The position numbers and the translations under genes are program-made. The notes beneath the pieces were generated by a model. That model ran no database searches, was not told the origin of the DNA, and saw only the letters and a program-made list of their open reading frames with translations. Of a stretch of 64,000 nucleotides of DNA, positions 28,178 through 41,719 are shown one piece after another; the first letter of the stretch is position 1; each line of letters begins with the position of its first letter. Source of the stretch: Mycolicibacter algericus DSM 45454 (GTDB lineage Bacteria > Actinomycetota > Actinomycetes > Mycobacteriales > Mycobacteriaceae); assembly GCF_002086455.1 (NCBI RefSeq), contig NZ_MVHC01000007.1, positions 62,001-126,000 of the forward strand, in the 5' to 3' direction.

Positions 28178-28229
28178 CGGCGCCATCGAAGCTCGTCCCT
28201 GACGTCATCAGGCCAGGACAGGAGTGGTT

Positions 28230-29492
28230 GTGGCGCGTTTTCCCAAGCCGCCCGAGGGCAGTTGGACCCAGCACTATGAACTCGGTACCGAACCGGTGTC
28301 CTACCGCGATTCCATCAGCCCCGCGGTCTACGAGAAGGAGCGGGCGGCGATCTTCCAGCGCGCCTGGCTCAATGTCGGTCGGGTGGAACAACTTCCACGC
28401 AAGGGCAGCTACTACACCAAGGAACTCAAGGTCGCCAACACCTCGATCATCGTGGCGCGCACGACATCTGACGAGGTCAAGGCCTACCACAATGTCTGCC
28501 GGCACCGCGGCAACAAGCTGGTGTGGGACACCATGCCATTGGAGGAGACCAGCGGGAACTGCCGCCAGTTCACCTGCAAGTACCACGGCTGGCGCTACGA
28601 CCTCGACGGCAACCTGACCTACGTGCAGCAGGAAGAGGAGTTCTTCGACCTGGACAAGAGCCGCTACGGGCTGGTCGGCGTGCACTGCGAAGTCTGGGAG
28701 GGCTTCATCTTCGTCAACTTCGCCGCGGCGCCCGAGCAGTCGCTACGCGAATTCCTCGGCCCGATGGTCACGGCTTTGGCGGGTTACCCGTTCGGGAAGA
28801 TGACATCGCGTTGGCAGTACCGTTCGGAAGTCAACTCGAACTGGAAGCTGTTCCTGGACGCGTTCCAGGAGTTCTACCACGCTCCGGTGTTACACGGGAA
28901 CCAGACACCCGTAGCGTTCAGGGTGGCGGCCGAGGAGGCCGGTTTCGAAGCGCCGCACTACCGGCTCGAGGGGCCGCACCGGTTGGTGAGCACCTCGGGG
29001 GTGCGGGCCTGGGAGATGTCGGCCGAGATGCGCAAGCCGATCGAGGACATCTGTCAGAGCGGGTTGTTCGGCCCGTGGGACCCGCCGGACATCGGTCCGG
29101 TTCCCGACGGCCTCAACCCGGCCAACTGCGATCCCTGGGGCCTGGACTCGTTCCAGATCTTCCCCAACTTCACCATCCTGTTCTGGGGCCAGGGCTGGTA
29201 CCTGACCTACCACTACTGGCCGACGTCGCACGAGTCGCACATCTTCGAGGGCACGCTGTACTTCCCGCAGCCGCGCACGCCCCGCGAGCGGGTCGCCCAG
29301 GAACTCGCGGCCGTATCGTTCAAGGAGTACGGGTTGCAGGACGCCAGCACGCTGGAGGCCACCCACACGATGCTCGGCACCGGAGCGGTGGACCACTTCC
29401 TGCTCAACGACCAGGAGGTGCTGATCCGGCACTTCCACCACGAAACCGCCCGATGGATCGCCGAATACGAGCACGCGAACGCGAAGGTGTGA
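28230..29492 (+). CDS. Rieske non-heme iron oxygenase alpha subunit (oxygenase A)
   Basis: A 420-aa ring-hydroxylating-type oxygenase. The Rieske [2Fe-2S] ligands are C90/H92 (NVCRHRG) and C116/H119 (FTCKYHGW); the 23 residues between the pairs are more than the usual 15-17. The mononuclear iron site is EFYHAPVLHG with H217 and H222; E214 takes the place of the usual bridging Asp. GTG 28230 is chosen because ACAGGAG ends 5 nt upstream; an in-frame GTG at 28224 overlaps that site. The paired small protein follows 6 nt downstream. No reductase or ferredoxin is encoded nearby. Substrate unknown. Confidence 0.9.
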   Translation: MARFPKPPEGSWTQHYELGTEPVSYRDSISPAVYEKERAAIFQRAWLNVGRVEQLPRKGSYYTKELKVANTSIIVARTTSDEVKAYHNVCRHRGNKLVWDTMPLEETSGNCRQFTCKYHGWRYDLDGNLTYVQQEEEFFDLDKSRYGLVGVHCEVWEGFIFVNFAAAPEQSLREFLGPMVTALAGYPFGKMTSRWQYRSEVNSNWKLFLDAFQEFYHAPVLHGNQTPVAFRVAAEEAGFEAPHYRLEGPHRLVSTSGVRAWEMSAEMRKPIEDICQSGLFGPWDPPDIGPVPDGLNPANCDPWGLDSFQIFPNFTILFWGQGWYLTYHYWPTSHESHIFEGTLYFPQPRTPRERVAQELAAVSFKEYGLQDASTLEATHTMLGTGAVDHFLLNDQEVLIRHFHHETARWIAEYEHANAKV

Positions 29493-29498
29493 GTTGCC

Positions 29499-29828
29499 AT
29501 GACCGCGATGCTGCCGACCGAGTTCTCCGACCTCGAACCCTTCAACGGCTGGTGCCTGGCCTCTGAACCGGAGCGCTACGCCAAGCGGATGGCCAGTTCC
29601 ATGGCGGACATGCAGGCGTTCTACGATGCCATCACGGCGCGCGCCGAAGACGCGCTGGCCTACTGCGACAAGTTCAGCCTCGACGACCTGCCCGAGGACG
29701 TCCTCAACCTGATGCATCTGCTGTATTCCATGATCACGGTGGCGTTCCCGGCCGAATCCTGGAAGCAGCCCACGGTTCCCGACTCCGGGGCCGCCGTCAT
29801 CGAGTGCGTCGCCGAGCCGTTCCCGTGA
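29499..29828 (+). CDS. Oxygenase-associated small protein (copy A)
   Basis: A 109-aa, mostly alpha-helical-looking acidic protein of unknown family, lying 6 nt after oxygenase A. It shares with the 111-aa product of the gene after oxygenase B the pattern WCL, ER, FYDA, YCDKF, LPED, LNL.HL.YS and QP. Because each copy follows its own oxygenase, a dedicated partner (assembly factor, small subunit or electron-transfer adaptor) is inferred. It does not look like the classical cystatin-fold beta subunit. The stop overlaps the amidohydrolase GTG (GTGA). Confidence 0.75.
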   Translation: MTAMLPTEFSDLEPFNGWCLASEPERYAKRMASSMADMQAFYDAITARAEDALAYCDKFSLDDLPEDVLNLMHLLYSMITVAFPAESWKQPTVPDSGAAVIECVAEPFP

Positions 29829-31094: not shown

Positions 31095-31550
31095 ATGGAT
31101 CTCAACCGCAATACCCTGTGGCTGCTCAAGCAGGCCTTCTACTACTCGCTGACCACCGTGAACGAGGCGATCAGCGATTACGGGGTGAGCACCGCCCAGA
31201 TCGGGTTGTTACGCCAACTGGCCGGCGAGCCGGGGCTGTCCGGCGCGGAGTTGGCGCGCCGGCTGCTGATCACTCCGCAGGGCGTACAGCTGGCGCTGAG
31301 CGCGCTCGAGGGACGCGGTCTGGTGGAGCGCAAGCAGGATCCGCGGCACGGCCGAATCCTGCGGGCCTATCTCACCGATGAGGGGCGTTCGGTGGCCTCG
31401 GCGGTGGTCGCCGACGCGATCGCCGCGCACGAGAAGGTGTTCGGCGTATTGACCGCGCAGGAACAGGAGACGCTGCGGGCGCTGCTGACCCGCGTCGTCG
31501 AGCAGGGCACCGGGCATACCCTGTTCGACGACCACGTCGAGCCTCACTAG
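31095..31550 (+). CDS. MarR-family transcriptional regulator
   Basis: A 151-aa winged-helix regulator. The helix-turn-helix LSGAELARRLLITPQGVQLALSALEGRGLVER and the wing DPRHGRILRAYLTDEG are clear. AAGTGGGGA precedes the ATG. Last gene of the oxygenase A operon (16 nt after the amidohydrolase). It probably senses an aromatic or acyl ligand and controls the local operon. The stop overlaps the convergent VWA gene by 4 bp. Confidence 0.9.
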   Translation: MDLNRNTLWLLKQAFYYSLTTVNEAISDYGVSTAQIGLLRQLAGEPGLSGAELARRLLITPQGVQLALSALEGRGLVERKQDPRHGRILRAYLTDEGRSVASAVVADAIAAHEKVFGVLTAQEQETLRALLTRVVEQGTGHTLFDDHVEPH

Positions 31551-33229
31551 CGTCGGGGCCCGGGTTTCGGCGCGGCGAGTTCGGCCAGCGCCGCCGAGAA
31601 CAACTCGTCCATCCGCGGGCTCAACGCGGCCAGCGTCGTGGCGCTGGCATGGCCGGCGGCGCCGAAGACCGGCCGGTCGGTCTCGCCGGTGGCGCCGATG
31701 GTCAGACACAGGCAGCCGAGGCCGTCTGCGCGGAGTTCCTCGATGGCCTTGCCGACGTCGGCCTCGGCGTAACGGCCTTCGTAGCCGACGTCGTAGGGAA
31801 AGCCGTCCGACAAGACGAGCAACAGCCGATTGGGGGTGCCCGCCTCGGCCTTGAGGATCTGCGCGGCGCCGCGGATCCCGGCGCCGAGCCGGGTGTAGCC
31901 CGACGGCTGGAGCTGGTTGAGCCGGGCCCGCCCGACCGCACCGAAACGTTGCCCGAAGGTCTTGATCGCCGGCAGCTCAACACAGTGCCTGCCCTGCGAC
32001 CGGAACGCATAGACGGCCACCCGATCGCCGAGCTCCTCGAGCGTGACGGCCAGCGTGGCGGCCGCTCGGCGCTGATGGTCATGCACCGCGAGGCCTGCCG
32101 GGTCGGTGTCCGTCGACGATCCGGACGCATCCAGCAAGATCAGGACGCCGAGATTGCGGGCAAGCTTGCGCCGTTCGGTGTAGACGTGTTCCGGTGGCGA
32201 ATGGCCGGAGCGCAAGTCCACGAACACATCGACGAGCGCCTCGAGGTCCAGCTCGTCCCCGTCGGGCTTTCCCCGTAACACCTTGGGCCCCAAGCCGACC
32301 CGCGACAGCCGCCGGCGAAGCACATCATCGTGGATCACACCGGCGCCGGAGGGGGGTGCGGCGGCGGTGAGCGGGAAATCGACGACGCGGCACCAGTTGG
32401 GCCGGTAGGTGTTGCTGAAGACATCCCACTCGGGATACCAGGCTCCGCCGATACCCGCCGTTGCCGCCGGCTTCTCGTCGGTGAATCGGATCCGGCTGGG
32501 CAGCGGGCGGGCGTTCGGTCCGGCCGACCGCGTCCGGCGCAGGGTGCGGGCCGACAGCTCACCGCCGGAGTTGCTGTCGCCGGACCGCGAGCCGCCGAGC
32601 AGTTTTCGCAGAAACTCGGAGAGGGCTGGCGAATTGAAGACCGGGTTGTCGAACAACTTGAGGATCCTGCTCTGGCCGGCGTCCGTCTCGTCATCGTCAT
32701 CGTCTGCCGGTGCGTCGGTGGCAACGAGCTCGAAGCGCAGGTCGGCGTCGGCGGCTTTCGCGCTGGCGGTGCCGGCCGACTGCAACAGCCGGGCGGGTTT
32801 GATGACACCGAACCACTCCGGTGGGTCTGCGATGTTGACCCGCGTTCTGGCCAGCCGCAGCGATTCGTCGGCCGTCGCGGTACGCGGCGGCGACCCGGAG
32901 CGCAGTGCCGCCGCCAGCGGCAGCCGGGTGGCGACGTCGCTCAGTACCCGGTCGCCTTCGAGCGCTAGATAGCGCCGGGCCACCGAGGGGCGTGCCCGCA
33001 GCGCCTTGACCAGCCGCGGTTCCAGGCTCCCGGCGCCCAGCAGCGCGCCCTGGACCAGGATCTCGCGGCGCTGCGTCGCCGCCGATGCGCCCGCCGACAC
33101 GAAGATGGCATGCCCGTTGGTGTGTGCGGCCTCGCCCGCGGGCGCCTGCGCAACCTCGACCGACCGGCCCGCGAGGTAGCCGGCGATGAACGTGAACCGG
33201 TCGGGCGTGGCCGGGCCCGGCGCGCTCAC
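31547..33229 (-). CDS. VWA-domain protein, NorD/CbbO-like
   Basis: A 560-aa protein. Residues ~1-340 are a poorly conserved N-region with an acidic patch (DDDDDETDAGQ). The C-terminal ~200 residues are a von Willebrand A domain with the MIDAS motif LLDASGSS, followed by SGYTRLGAGIRGAAQIL and VLSDGFP. This matches NorD/CbbO-type partners of MoxR AAA+ ATPases that activate metalloenzymes. GTG start overlaps the AAA+ stop (GTGA). Confidence 0.87.
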   Translation of the reverse strand: MSAPGPATPDRFTFIAGYLAGRSVEVAQAPAGEAAHTNGHAIFVSAGASAATQRREILVQGALLGAGSLEPRLVKALRARPSVARRYLALEGDRVLSDVATRLPLAAALRSGSPPRTATADESLRLARTRVNIADPPEWFGVIKPARLLQSAGTASAKAADADLRFELVATDAPADDDDDETDAGQSRILKLFDNPVFNSPALSEFLRKLLGGSRSGDSNSGGELSARTLRRTRSAGPNARPLPSRIRFTDEKPAATAGIGGAWYPEWDVFSNTYRPNWCRVVDFPLTAAAPPSGAGVIHDDVLRRRLSRVGLGPKVLRGKPDGDELDLEALVDVFVDLRSGHSPPEHVYTERRKLARNLGVLILLDASGSSTDTDPAGLAVHDHQRRAAATLAVTLEELGDRVAVYAFRSQGRHCVELPAIKTFGQRFGAVGRARLNQLQPSGYTRLGAGIRGAAQILKAEAGTPNRLLLVLSDGFPYDVGYEGRYAEADVGKAIEELRADGLGCLCLTIGATGETDRPVFGAAGHASATTLAALSPRMDELFSAALAELAAPKPGPRR

Positions 33230-34047
33230 ATCGGGGGAAGTACGGCGTCGGCGAGTTCACCGAGCGCGCGGATGACGTCGGTGTCGTCGGAGAGGACTTG
33301 GACGATGGCGGCCTGGACTGCGCTGCGCAGGCCGAGGCCTTCGGCGACCAGGCCGCCGGCCAGGATCAGCATCCTGGTGGAGGCGCCCTCGCGCAGCGGT
33401 GAGCCGTCCAGGTTCCGGATGGCGTTGCCGAGTGCCACCAGAGCCTGCGCCGTCTGCGGATCGACCCCGGTTTCGTGCGAGACGATGTCGATCTCGGCCT
33501 GCGCCGGCGGGAAGCCGAGCTCGATGGCGACGAACCGTTGCCGGGTCGACTCCTTGAGATTCTTCAGCACGCTCTGGTACCCGGGGTTATAGGAGATCAC
33601 CAGCTGAAACCCCGGTGCCGCCGGCACCGTCGTGCCGAGTCGATCCACCGGCAGGGCACGGCGGTGATCGGCGAGCGGATGGATGACGACGGTGGTGTCC
33701 TGGCGCGCCTCCACCACCTCGTCCAGATAGAAGATGGCGCCTTCGCGTACCGCACGGGTCAGCGGACCGTCGACCCAGACCGTTTCCGAGCCCTTGAGCA
33801 GGAATCGGCCCACCAGGTCCGCCGACGTCATGTCCTCGTGTCCGGCGACGGTGATCAGCTCGCGACCCGACTGCTCGGCCATGGCCTCCACGAAACGCGT
33901 CTTCCCGCATCCCGTGGGCCCCTTCAACAGCACCGGCAGCCCGCGACGCGCCGCCGCCCGAAAGACTTCGATCTCATCGCCGACCGCCCGGTAAAAGGGC
34001 GCCCCGGTACGGCTTTCGGCCGATGTGGCGGAGCTGTTGTTCAGCAC
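33226..34047 (-). CDS. MoxR-type AAA+ ATPase, NorQ/CbbQ-like
   Basis: A 273-aa AAA+ ATPase. Walker A is GPTGCGKTRF, Walker B is IFYLDEVVEAR, and ISYNPGYQ, the CbbQ/NorQ-typical sensor region, is followed by STRQRFVAIEL. Such ATPases pair with a VWA protein to remodel and activate metal-dependent enzymes. Start: the GTG beginning LNNSSATSAES, preceded by GGGAAG and located just after the AveC-like stop; the frame is open far upstream but there it only runs antiparallel through that gene. Coupled to the VWA gene. Confidence 0.9.
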   Translation of the reverse strand: MLNNSSATSAESRTGAPFYRAVGDEIEVFRAAARRGLPVLLKGPTGCGKTRFVEAMAEQSGRELITVAGHEDMTSADLVGRFLLKGSETVWVDGPLTRAVREGAIFYLDEVVEARQDTTVVIHPLADHRRALPVDRLGTTVPAAPGFQLVISYNPGYQSVLKNLKESTRQRFVAIELGFPPAQAEIDIVSHETGVDPQTAQALVALGNAIRNLDGSPLREGASTRMLILAGGLVAEGLGLRSAVQAAIVQVLSDDTDVIRALGELADAVLPPM

Positions 34048-34049
34048 TG

Positions 34050-35204
34050 TTACTTCCCGGGCTCGAAGGGCACGATCGGGGGCACCGAAACCCCGTCGGG
34101 CATCACCAGTTGGCCGTCGACATTGATGTAGCCGGACCGGTTGGACGGCATCGGCAGGGCCGGATGCGGACACGGCTTGTCGGTCCCGTCGCCGCAGATG
34201 CCGCCGGTGAAGTAGGAGCGCTTCTGGTGGTCTTGCGGCCACGGATCGGCATGCAGGGCGATCCATTGCGCCGGGCCCATGTAGAAGGCGAAGAAGCACG
34301 CGCTCACCCCGGCGAAGATCGCCAGGAACCGGGTGAACTGCTGCCGCGCGAATCCGCCGCGGACGCCATCCAGTCCGCGCTCGACGACGGTGCGGCCGCG
34401 ATCGTCGGTGAAGTAACGCAGGCAGCACAGCGCCGCCTGCACCGCTCCCCACATGAGTCCCTCGTAGACGGGCCATTGGTAGTAGGTGTCGGCATTGATC
34501 GACACCGACCGGATGGCGCCGGGGTAGGTGTACAGGCCGATCGGCAGCAGGACCAGGCCCTCCATGACGAAGTCGAAGACGAACGAGATCGCATAGGTCA
34601 CGGCGATCAGGCGAAGATTGCTGATGCCGGGCCAGCGCGCCTTGATCTTTCGCATCACGGCGCATCCGACGATGGTGATCAGCAGCACCCCGTAGGCGTA
34701 GCCCGGAAGGTTCGTCAACAGCGGCTCGGCGACCTGGCGGCCGGGTTCCTCCGGTGACGCCCACCCGGGGATGTGCGACGTCCAGGCGCCCCGGTTGAAC
34801 AGCCAGGTGTTGTAGGTGCACCAGGTGTTGAAGTAGTTGAGCAGCGGGTCTTGGAAGAACATCAGGCCGATCGATAAAAAGAGCATGCCGTCCAACGTGA
34901 TTCGCCGCTCGCGACGCCAGGGGCGGATGAAGAACCACCAGATGGCGAACGGCAGGCCGACCCACAGCACGATGGCGTTGGCCATCAGCGGAACCTTCAT
35001 GTACATCGGCGGATCGTTCGGTCCGACCGGGACGCGTTCGAAGTACGGGCCGGTGATCCAACGCGCCCACACATACAGCTGCAGCGCCAGCAGCGCGCCG
35101 CCGGCGGCCGCCCAGATCCGGATGGCCCCGCCGCCTCGACTGCCGGCGGACTCCGGCCGCGCGGCAACTGACACGTTCTGCTGGCTCGGCACGCCGCTAC
35201 CCAT
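34050..35204 (-). CDS. AveC-like (spirocyclase family) membrane protein
   Basis: A 384-aa integral membrane protein with about seven hydrophobic helices and conserved polar stretches (FFQDPLLNYFNTWCTYN, FDFVMEGLVLLPIGLYTYPGA, MGPAQWIALHADPWP). These fit the AveC-like/spirocyclase family, common and mostly uncharacterised in mycobacteria. It heads an operon with the AAA+ and VWA genes (2-nt gap to the AAA+ start) and diverges from the TetR gene. It may be the enzyme that the ATPase pair activates; that is inference. Confidence 0.8.
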   Translation of the reverse strand: MGSGVPSQQNVSVAARPESAGSRGGGAIRIWAAAGGALLALQLYVWARWITGPYFERVPVGPNDPPMYMKVPLMANAIVLWVGLPFAIWWFFIRPWRRERRITLDGMLFLSIGLMFFQDPLLNYFNTWCTYNTWLFNRGAWTSHIPGWASPEEPGRQVAEPLLTNLPGYAYGVLLITIVGCAVMRKIKARWPGISNLRLIAVTYAISFVFDFVMEGLVLLPIGLYTYPGAIRSVSINADTYYQWPVYEGLMWGAVQAALCCLRYFTDDRGRTVVERGLDGVRGGFARQQFTRFLAIFAGVSACFFAFYMGPAQWIALHADPWPQDHQKRSYFTGGICGDGTDKPCPHPALPMPSNRSGYINVDGQLVMPDGVSVPPIVPFEPGK

Positions 35205-35965: not shown

Positions 35966-36022
35966 ATCCGTCACGATGCAGTGCGCAGTTGTGATTCGCC
36001 GATCGGCGCCGAAGGGGATGCA

Positions 36023-36781
36023 ATGACCACAGAGGTGTCGCCGCGGGTCGCCGTGGTCACCGGCGGAGCCTCCGGCATGGGCGAGGCCACCTGTCACGAA
36101 CTGGGCCGCCGCGGCTATCGCGTCGCCGTTCTCGATGTCGATGACCAAGCTGCGCAGCGGGTTACCGACGACCTTCGCGGCCTGGGGGTCACTGCGCTGG
36201 GAGTCGGGGTCGACGTCACCGATCGGGTCGCCGTCGACGACGGCCTGGCCAAGGTGCGCAGCCAGCTGGGGCCGGTCGCCGCACTGGTCACCAGCGCGGG
36301 CGTGTTCGGCTACTCCGCCTTCGCCGACATCACGCCGCAGGAGTGGGCGCGAATCATCGACGTCAACCTCACCGGCACCTTCCACTGCTGCCAGGCCGCG
36401 CTACCGGACATGGTCGAGGCCGGCTGGGGGCGCATCGTGATGATCTCGTCGTCCAGTGCCCAGCGCGGCACACCGTTCGCGGCCCACTACGCGGCGTCCA
36501 AGGGCGGGGTCATCACCCTGACCAAGTCGCTGGCCCGCGAGTACGCCGGCCGCGGCATCACGGTCAACAACATCCCGCCCTCGGGAATCGAGACGCCCAT
36601 GCAACACCAGTCGCAGGCGGCCGGACACCTGCCGCCCAACGAGCAGATCGCCGCCAACATCCCGCTGGGCCGGCTGGGCACCGGCGCCGACATCGCCGCG
36701 GCTGTCGGGTTCCTGTGCTCGGAGGAGGCCGGCTTCATCACCGGTCAGGTGCTGGGCGTCAACGGCGGATCAGTGATGTGA
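36023..36781 (+). CDS. Short-chain dehydrogenase/reductase
   Basis: A 252-aa classical SDR. The cofactor motif is TGGASGMGEA near residue 16. The catalytic triad is the Ser pair in MISSSSAQ, Tyr in YAASKGG and the following Lys; the C-terminal ITGQVLGVNGGSVM is typical of the FabG-like group. ATG 36023 is chosen over an upstream GTG because AAGGGG lies 5-6 nt before it. First gene of the operon with oxygenase B; it likely oxidises or reduces an alcohol/ketone in the pathway. Confidence 0.92.
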   Translation: MTTEVSPRVAVVTGGASGMGEATCHELGRRGYRVAVLDVDDQAAQRVTDDLRGLGVTALGVGVDVTDRVAVDDGLAKVRSQLGPVAALVTSAGVFGYSAFADITPQEWARIIDVNLTGTFHCCQAALPDMVEAGWGRIVMISSSSAQRGTPFAAHYAASKGGVITLTKSLAREYAGRGITVNNIPPSGIETPMQHQSQAAGHLPPNEQIAANIPLGRLGTGADIAAAVGFLCSEEAGFITGQVLGVNGGSVM

Positions 36782-36817: not shown

Positions 36818-38032
36818 ATGCAACGATCCGGTAGGCCCGCAGTGGGTTCGTGGACCGAGCACTATGGGCTCGGCACCGGCCCGGTCTCGTTCGCCGACTC
36901 CACCTCGCCCGAGTTCTACGAGGTCGAGCGCGAGGCGGTGTTCAAACGAGCCTGGCTCAACGTCGGCCGCGTCGAGGAGGCGCCCGACCACGGCAGTTAC
37001 GTCACCAAGGAGATCGAAGCGGCCCGGGCATCGGTCATCCTGGTGCGCACCGACGGCGGGGTTCGCGCATTCCACAACGTCTGCCCGCGGTGCGCCACGA
37101 AGCTGGTCTGGGACGACTTCCCGGACCGCGAGACCGCCGGGCAATGCCAGGAGTTCACCTGCAAGCGCTGCCGCGGCAGCCACGGATTCGACGGTGCCAA
37201 GCCGGACCTGATCGCAGTCCACTGCGACATCTGGAACGGCTTCGTCTTCATCAACTTCGCCGCCGAACCGCGGCAGGGTCTGCGCGAATTCCTCGGGCCG
37301 ATGATCACCGGTCTCGACGACTACCCGTTCGAGAAACTGACCGAACGCTACGACTGGGTGGCGCACAACAACAGCAACTGGAAGATCTTCGCCGACGCGT
37401 TCCAGGAGTACTACCACGTGCCGGCGCTGCACTCGCAGCAGGTTCCCGCCGCGGTGCGAGTGCCCGATGCCGGCTTCACCTGCGGTCACTTCCAAGTCGA
37501 CGGGCCGCACCGGTTGGTGTCCACCGCCGGGCGGCGCCGCTGGTTGCTGCCGCCGGAGTACATGTACCCGATCGAGCGCGCCACCCGCAGCGGACTGGTC
37601 GGTCCTTGGGAGACCCCCGATATCGGTGAGATACCGGCCGGGGTGAACCCGGGCGGCATCGAACCATGGGGGATCAGCAACTTCCAGATCTTCCCCAACA
37701 CCGAGATCCTCATCTACGGCGGCTGGTACCTGCTCTACCGGTACTGGCCCACGTCGCACAACACCCACCGGTTCGAGGCCCACACCTACTTTCACCCGGC
37801 CCGCACCGTGCGTGAACGCATCGAACACGAGGTTGCCTCGGTGGTGCTCAAGGAGTTCGCACTTCAGGACGCCGGCATGCTCGGCGGCACCCAAGCCGCG
37901 CTGGAGTACGGCATCGTCGACGACTTCCCGCTCAACGATCAGGAGATCCTGGTCCGGCACCTGCACCAGGTGGTCAACGACTGGGTGGACGACTACCGGC
38001 GCGACCACGTCGGCGCGGGAGGGCCCCGGTGA
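36818..38032 (+). CDS. Oxygenase B: Rieske-oxygenase paralogue with a four-cysteine CxxC/CxxC site
   Basis: A 404-aa protein aligned along its whole length with oxygenase A (for example RAWLNVGRVE, HNVC, KLVWDD, REFLGPM, GPHRLVSTAG, FQIFPN, YWPTSH, LNDQEIL.RH). The mononuclear iron site EYYHVPALHS (H200, H205) is kept. At the Rieske site the CxH and CxxH pairs are replaced by C89-P-R-C92 and C115-K-R-C118, and about 20 residues that follow in A are absent. The four cysteines could bind Fe as in rubredoxin, a [2Fe-2S] cluster or zinc. AGGGAGG precedes the ATG. Its stop overlaps the small partner gene. Function unknown. Confidence 0.85.
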   Translation: MQRSGRPAVGSWTEHYGLGTGPVSFADSTSPEFYEVEREAVFKRAWLNVGRVEEAPDHGSYVTKEIEAARASVILVRTDGGVRAFHNVCPRCATKLVWDDFPDRETAGQCQEFTCKRCRGSHGFDGAKPDLIAVHCDIWNGFVFINFAAEPRQGLREFLGPMITGLDDYPFEKLTERYDWVAHNNSNWKIFADAFQEYYHVPALHSQQVPAAVRVPDAGFTCGHFQVDGPHRLVSTAGRRRWLLPPEYMYPIERATRSGLVGPWETPDIGEIPAGVNPGGIEPWGISNFQIFPNTEILIYGGWYLLYRYWPTSHNTHRFEAHTYFHPARTVRERIEHEVASVVLKEFALQDAGMLGGTQAALEYGIVDDFPLNDQEILVRHLHQVVNDWVDDYRRDHVGAGGPR

Positions 38033-38364
38033 CCGCCAAGAAGCTGCCGAGCGCCTTCGCCGAGCTGGAGAGGTTCGCCGAAACCTGGTGCTTGCCAACC
38101 GAAACCGAACGATTCAGTCAGCGGCTGGCCAGCACCATCCCGGAGCTGCGGGTGTTCTACGACGCGTTCTTCCCGCGGTTGGAGGAGGCGATCGACTACT
38201 GCGACAAGTTCGCCCTCGACGAGCTTCCCGAGGACGCGCTCAACCTGCTGCACCTGATCTATTCCCTGGTCATGGTGGCCATGGCGGTCGAGGTCATGCA
38301 CCAGCCCGCCCCCGTCGACGCCGCCGACGCGGTCATGATCCGCACCCGCTGGCCCGTTCCGTGA
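38029..38364 (+). CDS. Oxygenase-associated small protein (copy B)
   Basis: A 111-aa paralogue of the small protein beside oxygenase A. Shared signature: WCLPTETER, FYDA, E.A.DYCDKFALDELPEDALNLLHLIYS, QP..D and a C-terminal PVP. The GTG start overlaps the oxygenase B stop (GTGA), so translation is coupled. No known domain recognised. Conservation of the two cysteines (WC and YC) and of the DELPED core in both copies suggests a specific binding surface. Confidence 0.75.
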   Translation: MTAKKLPSAFAELERFAETWCLPTETERFSQRLASTIPELRVFYDAFFPRLEEAIDYCDKFALDELPEDALNLLHLIYSLVMVAMAVEVMHQPAPVDAADAVMIRTRWPVP

Positions 38365-38398: not shown

Positions 38399-39244
38399 AT
38401 GAGTCTGCTCACCATCAACAAACTCACCTCCTCGGTGGGCGCCGAGGTCATCGGTGTCCAGCCGGAACGACTGGTCGACGACGATCACCTCAGCGCCGCG
38501 GTGCTCGAGGCGCTGGAGGGCAACGGGGTCCTGGTGTTTCGGGATCTGCATCTTGAGCCCACCGACCAGGTGGCGTTCTGCGGGCGGCTGGGCAGCGTGG
38601 ACTTCTCCTCGGACGGCCACCACGAGGTGGCCGGGATCTACCCGATCACGCTGAACAGCGCGAAGAATTCCGCCGCGAGCTACCTGCGCGCCACGTTCGA
38701 CTGGCACATCGACGGTTGCACGCCGATGGGCGACGAGTGCCCGCAGAAGGCGACCGTGCTCTCCGCGGTGCAGGTCGCCGAGCGGGGTGGCGAGACCGAG
38801 TTCGCCAGTTCCTATGGCGCCTACGACCTGCTCACCGACGAGGAGCAGCACCGCTTCGGCGCCCTGCAGGTGGTGCACTCGCTGGAAGCCTCTCAGCGCC
38901 GGGTCACCCCCGACCCGACACCGGAAGAGCTCGCGAGGTGGCGGGCCCGGCCCACCCACACCCATCCGCTGGTGTGGACACACAACACCGGTCGAAAGTC
39001 ATTGGTGCTGGGCGCCTCCGCCGACTACATCGTCGGCATGGATCTCGACGAGGGGCGCGCGCTGCTGACCGAACTGCTCGAGCGCGCCACCGTCCCCGAC
39101 AAGGTCTACCGCCACAACTGGTCGGTCGGCGACACCGTCATCTGGGACAACCGCGGCGTGCTGCACCGCGCCGCCCCGTACGATCCGGACTCCCCGCGGG
39201 AGATGCTGCGCACCACGGTGCTCGGCGACGAGCCCATCCGGTGA
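38399..39244 (+). CDS. TauD/TfdA-family Fe(II)/2-oxoglutarate dioxygenase
   Basis: A 281-aa enzyme. The iron facial triad is H103-x-D105 (FDWHIDGC) and the distal H256 (NRGVLHRAAPYDP), followed by R267/R271 for 2-oxoglutarate. N-terminal VLVFRDLHL and WDNRGVLHR are typical of TauD/TfdA. Hydroxylates an unactivated carbon, coupled to succinate and CO2 formation; substrate unknown. It follows small protein B by 34 nt, with GAAAGGA about 9 nt before its ATG. Confidence 0.92.
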   Translation: MSLLTINKLTSSVGAEVIGVQPERLVDDDHLSAAVLEALEGNGVLVFRDLHLEPTDQVAFCGRLGSVDFSSDGHHEVAGIYPITLNSAKNSAASYLRATFDWHIDGCTPMGDECPQKATVLSAVQVAERGGETEFASSYGAYDLLTDEEQHRFGALQVVHSLEASQRRVTPDPTPEELARWRARPTHTHPLVWTHNTGRKSLVLGASADYIVGMDLDEGRALLTELLERATVPDKVYRHNWSVGDTVIWDNRGVLHRAAPYDPDSPREMLRTTVLGDEPIR

Positions 39245-39332: not shown

Positions 39333-40481
39333 ATGACCGAGTTGTCCACCGAGAGTGAGCTGTTCGTCGCGACCGCGCGGGCGTTTCTCGACAAGACCGC
39401 GGCGATCAGCGCGCAACGCGAGCTGCACGCCCAGGGCCGCTCCTATGACCCGGCGTGGTGGAATCGGGCTGCTGAACTCGGCTGGGCCGGCCTGCTGGTG
39501 CCTGAGGAGCTCGGCGGCGGCAGCGTCTCGGCAAGCGGTCTGCACGACCTGGCGGCGATCGCCGAAGCGAGCGGGCGCACGGTGGGCCCGGGGCCGCTGT
39601 ACCCGGTGAGCACCGTGCTGGCCGGTCTGATCGACGCCGACAACGCCGACGCCCACGCCGAGAGCATCGCCGCGCTGGTAGCCGGGGAACAGGTGGGCAC
39701 CTGGGCTGCGGATGAACCGGGTCGGGCCTTCCGCCCGCATGCGCCGAGCGCTACCGCCACGGCCACCACGAAGGCCGCCGGAACCGGTTACCGGCTCAAC
39801 GGCGTCAAGGACCGGGTCGAGGCCGGCGCGCAGGCAGACCTGATTCTCGTCGGCGCCCGCACCGACGACGGCGCGCTGCAGCAGTTCCTGATCCGCTCCG
39901 ACGCCCCGGGCGTCACGGTGCGCCCGCAGACCTGTATCGACCTGGTGAAGCAGTACGCCCGCATCGAGTTCGACGACGTCGAGGCCGAGGTGGTCGTCGG
40001 CACGGCCGCGCAAACCGCGGCCCTCATCGACCGGCAGACCCAGGTCGGCATCGCGCTGGCGTGCGCCGAATCCGTCGGGATCCTGGACGCCGTGCTGGCG
40101 CTGACCATCGAGTGGTGTCGCGACCGCTACAGTTTCGGCCGGCCGCTGGCGTCCTACCAGGCGCTCAAACACCGGCTTGCCGACATGACCATGTGGCTGC
40201 ACGCGGCACGCGCCATCACCGCCGGCGCCGTCGACAAGATCGCCGCGCGCACCCCGGACGCCGGGATGTGGGCCAGCGCCGCCAAATCCTATCTGGGGGA
40301 GCACGCCGGCCTGCTGGTCCAGGAGTGCATCCAGCTGCACGGCGGTATCGGCGTCACCTGGGAGCACGACCTGCACGTCTATCTGCGGAGGATCACGTTG
40401 TACCGCAATCTGCTCGGCACCCCGGGCGAGCATCACCAGGCGATCTTCACCGCCGCGAACTCGACGGAGCCCGCCGCATGA
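39333..40481 (+). CDS. Acyl-CoA dehydrogenase, subunit 1 of a probable heteromer
   Basis: A 382-aa flavoprotein of the FadE type. N-terminal helix domain, RDRYSFGRPLASYQALKHRLADM and the C-terminal HGGIGVTWEHDLHVYLRR are typical of the short subunit of heterotetrameric steroid/side-chain acyl-CoA dehydrogenases in actinobacteria. AGGAGGAG precedes the ATG. Overlaps the second dehydrogenase by 4 nt. Paired, overlapping ACAD genes usually form alpha2beta2 enzymes with one active site per dimer (family knowledge). Confidence 0.88.
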   Translation: MTELSTESELFVATARAFLDKTAAISAQRELHAQGRSYDPAWWNRAAELGWAGLLVPEELGGGSVSASGLHDLAAIAEASGRTVGPGPLYPVSTVLAGLIDADNADAHAESIAALVAGEQVGTWAADEPGRAFRPHAPSATATATTKAAGTGYRLNGVKDRVEAGAQADLILVGARTDDGALQQFLIRSDAPGVTVRPQTCIDLVKQYARIEFDDVEAEVVVGTAAQTAALIDRQTQVGIALACAESVGILDAVLALTIEWCRDRYSFGRPLASYQALKHRLADMTMWLHAARAITAGAVDKIAARTPDAGMWASAAKSYLGEHAGLLVQECIQLHGGIGVTWEHDLHVYLRRITLYRNLLGTPGEHHQAIFTAANSTEPAA

Positions 40482-41719
40482 GCCAGACCGCCGCAACCGA
40501 GCTCAGCGTGGCGGAGTTCGCCGCCCGGGCGCGTGCCTGGCTGGCCGACAACATGCCGCGGCTGGACCCCCAGCAGCCGCCGCGCAACGGTCGTGACGAC
40601 GAGGGCGCCTGGCAGCGTGCCCGCGAACTCCAGCGACGCCTCTACGAGGGTGGCTTCGCCGGGATCTGTTTCCCGCGCGAATACGGCGGCCTCGGACTGG
40701 ACATCGGCTACCAGAAGGCCTTCGACGTGGAATCCGACGGCTACGAGATGCCGTTGATCCTCAACGTCCCGACCTTCACCATCTGCTGCGCGACGCTGCT
40801 CGACACCGGCAGCGAGGAGCAGAAGCGCGAGCACATCGGCGCCGCGCTACGCGGTGACGAGGTGCTCGTCCAACTGCTCTCGGAGCCCAGTGGCGGGTCG
40901 GATCTGGCGGGGCTGATCACCCGCGCCGACCGCGACGGCGACGGCTGGGTGATCAGCGGGGCCAAGACCTGGAGCACCAGTGCCTTTGCCGCCGATTACG
41001 GGCTGCTGCTGGCCCGCACCGACGTGACGGTGCCCAAGCACGACGGCCTGACCATGTTCCTGATGCCGATCGACGCGCCCGGCGTCACACTGCGGCGCAT
41101 CGAACAGGTCGACGGATCCAACGAGTTCTGCGAGGAGTTCTTCGACGGACTGCGCCTCGGCGACGACGCGGTGGTCGGTGAGGTCAACAAGGGCTGGGAC
41201 GTCGCCTCCCGACTGTTGTTCCATGAGCGGCGCGCGGTCGGGCAGGGCTCGGAGTTCGCCAGCGGCCGCGGCGCCGAACGCACCGAGATGGCCGCCGGTG
41301 ACTTCCTCACCCTTGCCGCCGAAGCCGGGACCGCCGACGACCCGTTGACCCAGGACAAGATCGGCCGGGTGCTTGCCCGCCGGATGGTCCGCGACTGTCT
41401 CGTCGACCATGTCGGGCGTGCCATGCGCACCGGGGCGCTGCCGCCCGCCGCGGGCTCGCTCATCCGGCTGTTCCATTCCGACGTCACCTTCCTGGAGGTC
41501 GACACCGCCACCGAGGTCGCCGGCCCGCTCGGCGTCGTCGACGACGCGCAGTTGCTCAAGGTCGGAAAGCGGTACCTGTCCCGCCAGACGGTGGCGCTCG
41601 GCGGCGGCAGCAACGAGATGGCCCGCAATGTCATCGCCGAGCGGGTCCTCGGCCTGCCCCGTGAATACGCCGCCGACCGCGGCGTCCCGTTCAACCAGGT
41701 CCGACACAACAGGGCCTGA
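40478..41719 (+). CDS. Acyl-CoA dehydrogenase, subunit 2 of a probable heteromer
   Basis: A 413-aa acyl-CoA dehydrogenase. Visible motifs: GICFPREYGGLGLD, VLVQLLSEPSGGSDLAGL, GWVISGAKTWSTSAFAADYGLLLART and the C-terminal ALGGGSNEMARNVIAERVLGLPRE. ATG 40478 overlaps the preceding stop (ATGA). The frame is open upstream but only through the preceding gene. It probably dehydrogenates a CoA-thioester of a branched or steroid-derived side chain with its partner. Last island gene before purM. Confidence 0.88.
   Translation: MSQTAATELSVAEFAARARAWLADNMPRLDPQQPPRNGRDDEGAWQRARELQRRLYEGGFAGICFPREYGGLGLDIGYQKAFDVESDGYEMPLILNVPTFTICCATLLDTGSEEQKREHIGAALRGDEVLVQLLSEPSGGSDLAGLITRADRDGDGWVISGAKTWSTSAFAADYGLLLARTDVTVPKHDGLTMFLMPIDAPGVTLRRIEQVDGSNEFCEEFFDGLRLGDDAVVGEVNKGWDVASRLLFHERRAVGQGSEFASGRGAERTEMAAGDFLTLAAEAGTADDPLTQDKIGRVLARRMVRDCLVDHVGRAMRTGALPPAAGSLIRLFHSDVTFLEVDTATEVAGPLGVVDDAQLLKVGKRYLSRQTVALGGGSNEMARNVIAERVLGLPREYAADRGVPFNQVRHNRA

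Follow-up and report, generated by a model that had tools for sequence, protein, structure and literature searches.

The alpha subunits of the Rieske oxygenases (RHOs), among them CntA, GbcA and stachydrine demethylase, combine a Rieske domain (PF00355) with a catalytic domain (PF00848), and their Rieske ligands (C-x-H...C-x2-H) are usually taken as a defining and invariant feature. In RHO trimers the Rieske cluster lies about 12 Å from the iron of the next subunit, and an acidic residue is hydrogen-bonded, between the subunits, to a cluster histidine and an iron histidine (PMC12445004, PMC5033481). The caffeine N7-demethylase NdmC, part of NdmCDE, is a RHO-type subunit without a cluster of its own that is fed by the Rieske domain of a partner (PMC4408171), and it provides a precedent for an oxygenase that draws on a Rieske domain borne by a different protein. 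The ligands themselves have been altered by engineering in ARF, a small archaeal Rieske ferredoxin from Sulfolobus: exchange of only the second histidine for cysteine (H64C) gives a low-potential [2Fe-2S] cluster with 3Cys-1His ligation, exchange of the first histidine for cysteine fails, cluster assembly largely fails in the double His-to-Cys mutant, and the H44I/K45C/H64C variant holds a rubredoxin-like mononuclear Fe(Cys)4 site (Fe/Zn) (PMC2946596).

The locus described here lies in a window of 64,000 nucleotides from Mycolicibacter algericus DSM 45454 (the whole stretch of DNA that was analysed; Table 1) and encodes two RHO alpha subunits, oxygenases A and B, the second of which belongs to a family that departs in part from the usual ligands. 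B has the fold, iron ligands and bridging acid of the described alpha subunits, but differs from them in carrying CxxC/CxxC for CxH/CxxH, in a loop that is 16 residues shorter, and in a PF00355 match below the cut-off.

Table 1. Positions in the window of the oxygenase genes, their sites and their same-strand neighbours.
Feature	Position	Strand	Basis or remark
Oxygenase A, partner RHO alpha subunit, canonical CxH/CxxH	28224..29492	+	PF00355 E 2.4e-15, PF00848 E 3.5e-33
sA, 109 aa, putative small subunit of A, paralogue of sB	29499..29828	+	47% identity to sB
SDR oxidoreductase directly upstream of B	35981..36781	+	PF13561 E 6.8e-59; 36-base gap to B
Oxygenase B, RHO alpha subunit with converted Rieske site	36818..38032	+	404 aa; ORF and translation
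First metal knuckle C89-P-R-C92 (canonical form C-R-H-R)	37082..37093	+	Sequence
Second metal knuckle C115-K-R-C118 (canonical form C-K-Y-H)	37160..37171	+	Sequence
Loop after second knuckle, 16 residues shorter than in canonical orthologues and A	37172..37225	+	Alignments
Bridging Glu197 and iron ligands His200, His205	37406..37432	+	100% conserved
Third iron ligand Asp351	37868..37870	+	100% conserved
sB, 111 aa, putative cognate small subunit of B	38029..38364	+	Start overlaps B stop
TauD/TfdA-type dioxygenase downstream of sB	38399..39244	+	PF02668 E 2.3e-57
Two acyl-CoA dehydrogenases	39333-40481, 40478-41719	+	PF00441, PF02770, PF02771

The re-liganded Rieske site of oxygenase B

The reading frame of B is open over all 404 codons, the two knuckles are encoded by TGC CCG CGG TGC and TGC AAG CGC TGC, and the cysteines are spaced CX2C-X22-CX2C (CPRC at residues 89-92, CKRC at 115-118). 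Codons and spacing thus agree with a preceding sequence-only reading, which had described the replacement of the Rieske ligands within an intact frame, and at the level of sequence the change is established. The same reading had A aligning with B from end to end and retaining ordinary ligands, as is indeed the case (54% identity over nearly the whole length; CRHR...CKYH in A), while the deletion of about 20 residues that it placed after the second cysteine pair comes to 16 in the alignments. The Pfam scan assigned the catalytic half of B to PF00848 (E 1.8e-50), with Glu197 three residues before the first iron histidine; the Rieske family PF00355 scored 16.2 bits in that scan, under its cut-off of 20.3. 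The AlphaFold2 model has a mean pLDDT of 80.9 and is confident over the knuckles (block means of 91-93 for residues 91-120), and a fold search placed it nearest to RHO alpha subunits, with CntA first (Foldseek probability 1.00) and stachydrine demethylase also among them. RHO Rieske domains are still the top matches for a profile of the N-terminal domain.

The ligand pattern of B is that of rubredoxin, and its two CX2C knuckles making one four-cysteine site resemble a zinc ribbon. No rubredoxin family matched B in the Pfam scan at E values up to 1, and no zinc-ribbon family was found above threshold: TFS_arch reached E 0.061 with 14 bits against a cut-off of 64.75, and RPA12 was a weak sub-threshold match of zinc-ribbon type to the N-terminal domain profile (E 0.87). 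Unlike rubredoxins and zinc-ribbon proteins, B has a four-cysteine site that arose inside a Rieske domain. The sequence-only reading knew of no described oxygenase with an all-cysteine site, and we likewise found none in the open-access literature, to which subscription journals could add one.

Ligand states and descent of the B orthologues

Orthologues of B were collected from a genome-contig search, a genus search of 297 genomes, an order search and fetched regions; the nearest named match, from the genome-contig search, is M. senuensis GF74 (98% identity). Both Rieske histidines are present in 112 of the 163 distinct orthologues and one or both are lost in the other 51, and remodelling is therefore wider than the Mycolicibacter form. 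The Cys4 state (CPRC or CPGC with CKRC or CRRC) is found in 18 orthologues, all of the Mycolicibacter clade. Ten others, from M. aurum, M. wolinskyi, Gordonia rhizosphera and further species, have C-x-H with CxxC, and 21 have C-x4-H with CxxC (CRRRGH or CRQRGH), the carriers including M. setense, M. peregrinum, M. septicum, M. porcinum, M. houstonense and Aldersonia. C-x-H with CxxS occurs in two (M. neoaurum and locus L173), so that four strong ligands are not universal among the altered proteins. These two CxxS genes, at L071:8001-9200 and L173:601-1806, carry the motifs CAQS and CARS, and their sites could possibly be three-ligand or serine-liganded. A single family thus holds canonical, 3Cys-1His, C-x4-H and Cys4 versions in proteins that are otherwise similar and whose catalytic iron site does not vary; this natural series reproduces protein engineering once done in an archaeal Rieske protein.

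Several positions are held constant through this variation. Cys115 is present in all 163 orthologues and Cys118 in all 18 of the Mycolicibacter clade; in the 33 altered proteins outside Mycolicibacter, Cys89 and Cys115 are invariant and either His91 (12) or His94 (21) is found, always one and never both. As His91 or its stand-in His94 is always there, the number of ligands would be largely maintained. Within the Cys4 clade the four cysteines are invariant in 18 of 18 proteins, and both TGC and TGT are used at each of the four positions. Conservation across species, which the sequence-only reading had proposed as a check, thus holds for all four cysteines in Mycolicibacter and does not extend to the other altered orthologues, which differ. 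Judged from the alignments, the invariance of the four cysteines and the mutual exclusivity of His91 and His94 are what would be expected if a metal site were being maintained. Glu197, His200, His205 and Asp351 are present in every canonical, Cys4 and otherwise altered protein of the 163, in keeping with the earlier statement that the mononuclear iron site is retained. The intact gene and a motif common to 18 distinct orthologues rule out a pseudogene or sequencing error, an ordinary motif misread having been the other worry; the CxxC pairs recur in many separately sequenced Mycolicibacter genomes. Ligand variation that is widespread among RHOs in general was also considered and rejected, every non-B actinobacterial RHO locus being canonical in what was a small sample of 30 loci, B orthologues included.

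Selection acts unevenly along the Cys4-clade proteins, with a median dN/dS of 0.26 for residues 80-135, 0.18 for residues 1-79 and 0.10 for residues 136-404, which makes the segment 80-135 the fastest-evolving part. For the tree inference residues 80-137 were left out. A single Cys4 clade (support 100/99) lies within the canonical Mycobacterium orthologues, and a second group (support 80/88) unites the remaining altered proteins. Two changes are required on the unconstrained protein tree, but AU tests did not reject trees on which the altered state arose once (p 0.29 for protein, 0.57 for DNA); a claim of convergence was accordingly dropped, and one or two origins would fit the sequences. The 21 His94 proteins are related to each other, compatible with a single His94 origin (p-AU 0.52). 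A route through the C-x-H/CxxC state, in which the second histidine was lost first, is attractive because loss of that histidine is tolerated experimentally in ARF, and the order of events may have been this one.

Proposed metal, partner subunit and electron supply

At the loci examined each alpha subunit is followed by its own small protein of about 110 residues, giving the module A-sA ... B-sB, a pairing that gene order establishes. It is found in Mycobacterium, Mycolicibacter, Mycolicibacterium, Gordonia, Nocardia, Aldersonia, Williamsia, Actinomadura and an acidimicrobial MAG, a few of the loci being broken by contig ends. Neither sA nor sB has a Pfam or NCBIfam match or a significant PDB match in profile and fold searches; both are all-helical (AlphaFold2 mean pLDDT 88.9 for sB), and the two are possibly an undescribed family of RHO small subunits. 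In the search of 297 genomes, every genome listed with a match of B strength (E below 1e-170) has a second match. Three genomes of the genus (G149, G217, G263) are listed with one match each, of A-like strength, which suggests that A can occur without B. The Rieske segment of A is canonical in all 25 loci with an altered B in which it could be read, and the sole altered A, in Williamsia faeni (L080:1419-2684; CRHH...CKQRACGW, with a two-residue insertion bearing a cysteine near the lost second histidine), stands beside a canonical B. Every readable A/B pair has at least one normal Rieske site. This pattern should be interpreted with caution, as the altered state may have arisen only once and few independent events may underlie it.

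That the four cysteines of B bind a metal is strongly indicated by their pattern and conservation. In Mycolicibacter B the first histidine has become arginine, the next residue cysteine and the second histidine cysteine, which is the pattern of ARF H44I/K45C/H64C, and a mononuclear zinc or iron site is for this reason the best-supported inference from the comparison. The C-x-H/CxxC orthologues of M. aurum, M. wolinskyi and others, having lost only the second histidine to cysteine, resemble ARF H64C instead. The site in B differs from the engineered ones in being natural, conserved by selection and part of an oxygenase subunit.

We tentatively suggest, at a little short of an even chance, that B is an iron oxygenase subunit in which the Rieske site has been converted to a Cys4 site, holding structural zinc or rubredoxin-type iron, and which receives electrons in trans from A. 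Most likely the metal would serve chiefly in upkeep of the fold, and the catalytic iron of B would be fed by the intact Rieske cluster of A. A and B would then assemble into a mixed trimer, with the donor cluster provided by a neighbouring subunit, as in RHO trimers generally, and with A supplying its iron the cluster of B itself would be dispensable. On our reading of the RHO family the cluster histidine bonded to the bridging acid is the second Rieske histidine. B has lost this histidine and kept the acid, as expected if the Rieske histidine of another subunit meets it. The hetero-oligomer and the electron route are both inferred; A and B could also form separate homotrimers acting on successive substrates. 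If this reading is right, B would work to some extent as NdmC does; it is without canonical cluster ligands, and a canonical A is encoded alongside. The partner of NdmC is a reductase carrying an additional Rieske domain, whereas that proposed for B is a paralogous alpha subunit, and B keeps its Rieske domain in re-liganded form with the metal site apparently retained. B may represent a natural change from a Rieske [2Fe-2S] domain to a mononuclear Cys4 site in an oxygenase that, within a mixed trimer, takes its electrons from the Rieske cluster of its paralogue, a combination in which our confidence is again somewhat less than even.

The positional match to the rubredoxin-like ARF variant, together with full conservation of the catalytic site and bridging glutamate, would also suit a self-sufficient B, in which a rubredoxin-type iron centre acts as one-electron donor to the neighbouring B of a homotrimer. 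We consider this unlikely: the histidine joining the cluster to the bridging acid is gone, the segment is fast-evolving, and the chemically different sites elsewhere in the family (C-x4-H with CxxC, and CxxS) are hard to fit to one redox role. Loss of the electron-donating ligands and constant association with A could also be expected of a non-catalytic B with a structural or regulatory purpose within an A/B complex, but the iron ligands, the bridging glutamate and their surroundings are all invariant and purifying selection is stronger on the catalytic domain than elsewhere, which leaves such a role rather improbable. Retention of a [2Fe-2S] cluster of lower potential, with all-cysteine or 3Cys-1His ligation, draws on the cluster that assembles in ARF H64C and on the CxH/CxxC orthologues as its positional equivalents; for Mycolicibacter B it appears decidedly improbable, since the double His-to-Cys mutant of ARF was largely without cluster and a mononuclear site formed in the shifted-cysteine variant, which is the one that Mycolicibacter B matches. 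Decay of the Rieske domain with incidental cysteine pairs, to which the raised dN/dS of the segment, the loop deletion and the two CxxS proteins might point, is highly implausible and, as the sequence-only reading had argued, is rejected on grounds of conservation by the four cysteines kept under synonymous codon variation and the strict His91/His94 alternative.

The family makes it possible to test whether RHO trimers can be mixed, with the cluster of one subunit serving the iron of another, and how much drift of the metal loop is tolerated before the type of cluster changes. Naming by PF00848 alone calls for caution, as it hides enzymes without a Rieske cluster.

Gene neighbourhood

B stands in a same-strand run formed by the SDR oxidoreductase, B, sB, the TauD-type dioxygenase and the two acyl-CoA dehydrogenases. 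The scanned neighbours include no reductase or ferredoxin. The interval between A and B holds an amidohydrolase, MarR-like and TetR-like regulators (assigned by inspection), a VWA protein, an AAA+ ATPase and an AveC-like protein. The VWA protein (PF13519) and the ATPase, which is of the CbbQ/NirQ/NorQ type (PF07728 and PF08406), lie on the reverse strand at 31547-34200. Pairs of VWA protein and CbbQ/NorQ-type ATPase are chaperones of metalloenzymes or Rubisco in other systems, and by analogy this pair could serve oxygenases A and B. The AveC-like protein, a spirocyclase relative (PF17198, E 5e-106), is also encoded on the reverse strand within the oxygenase cluster, at 34050-35204. A third RHO paralogue (L003, at 152275-153534 of genome contig C75), outside the window and about 26 kb past its end, has canonical ligands and 47% identity to B.
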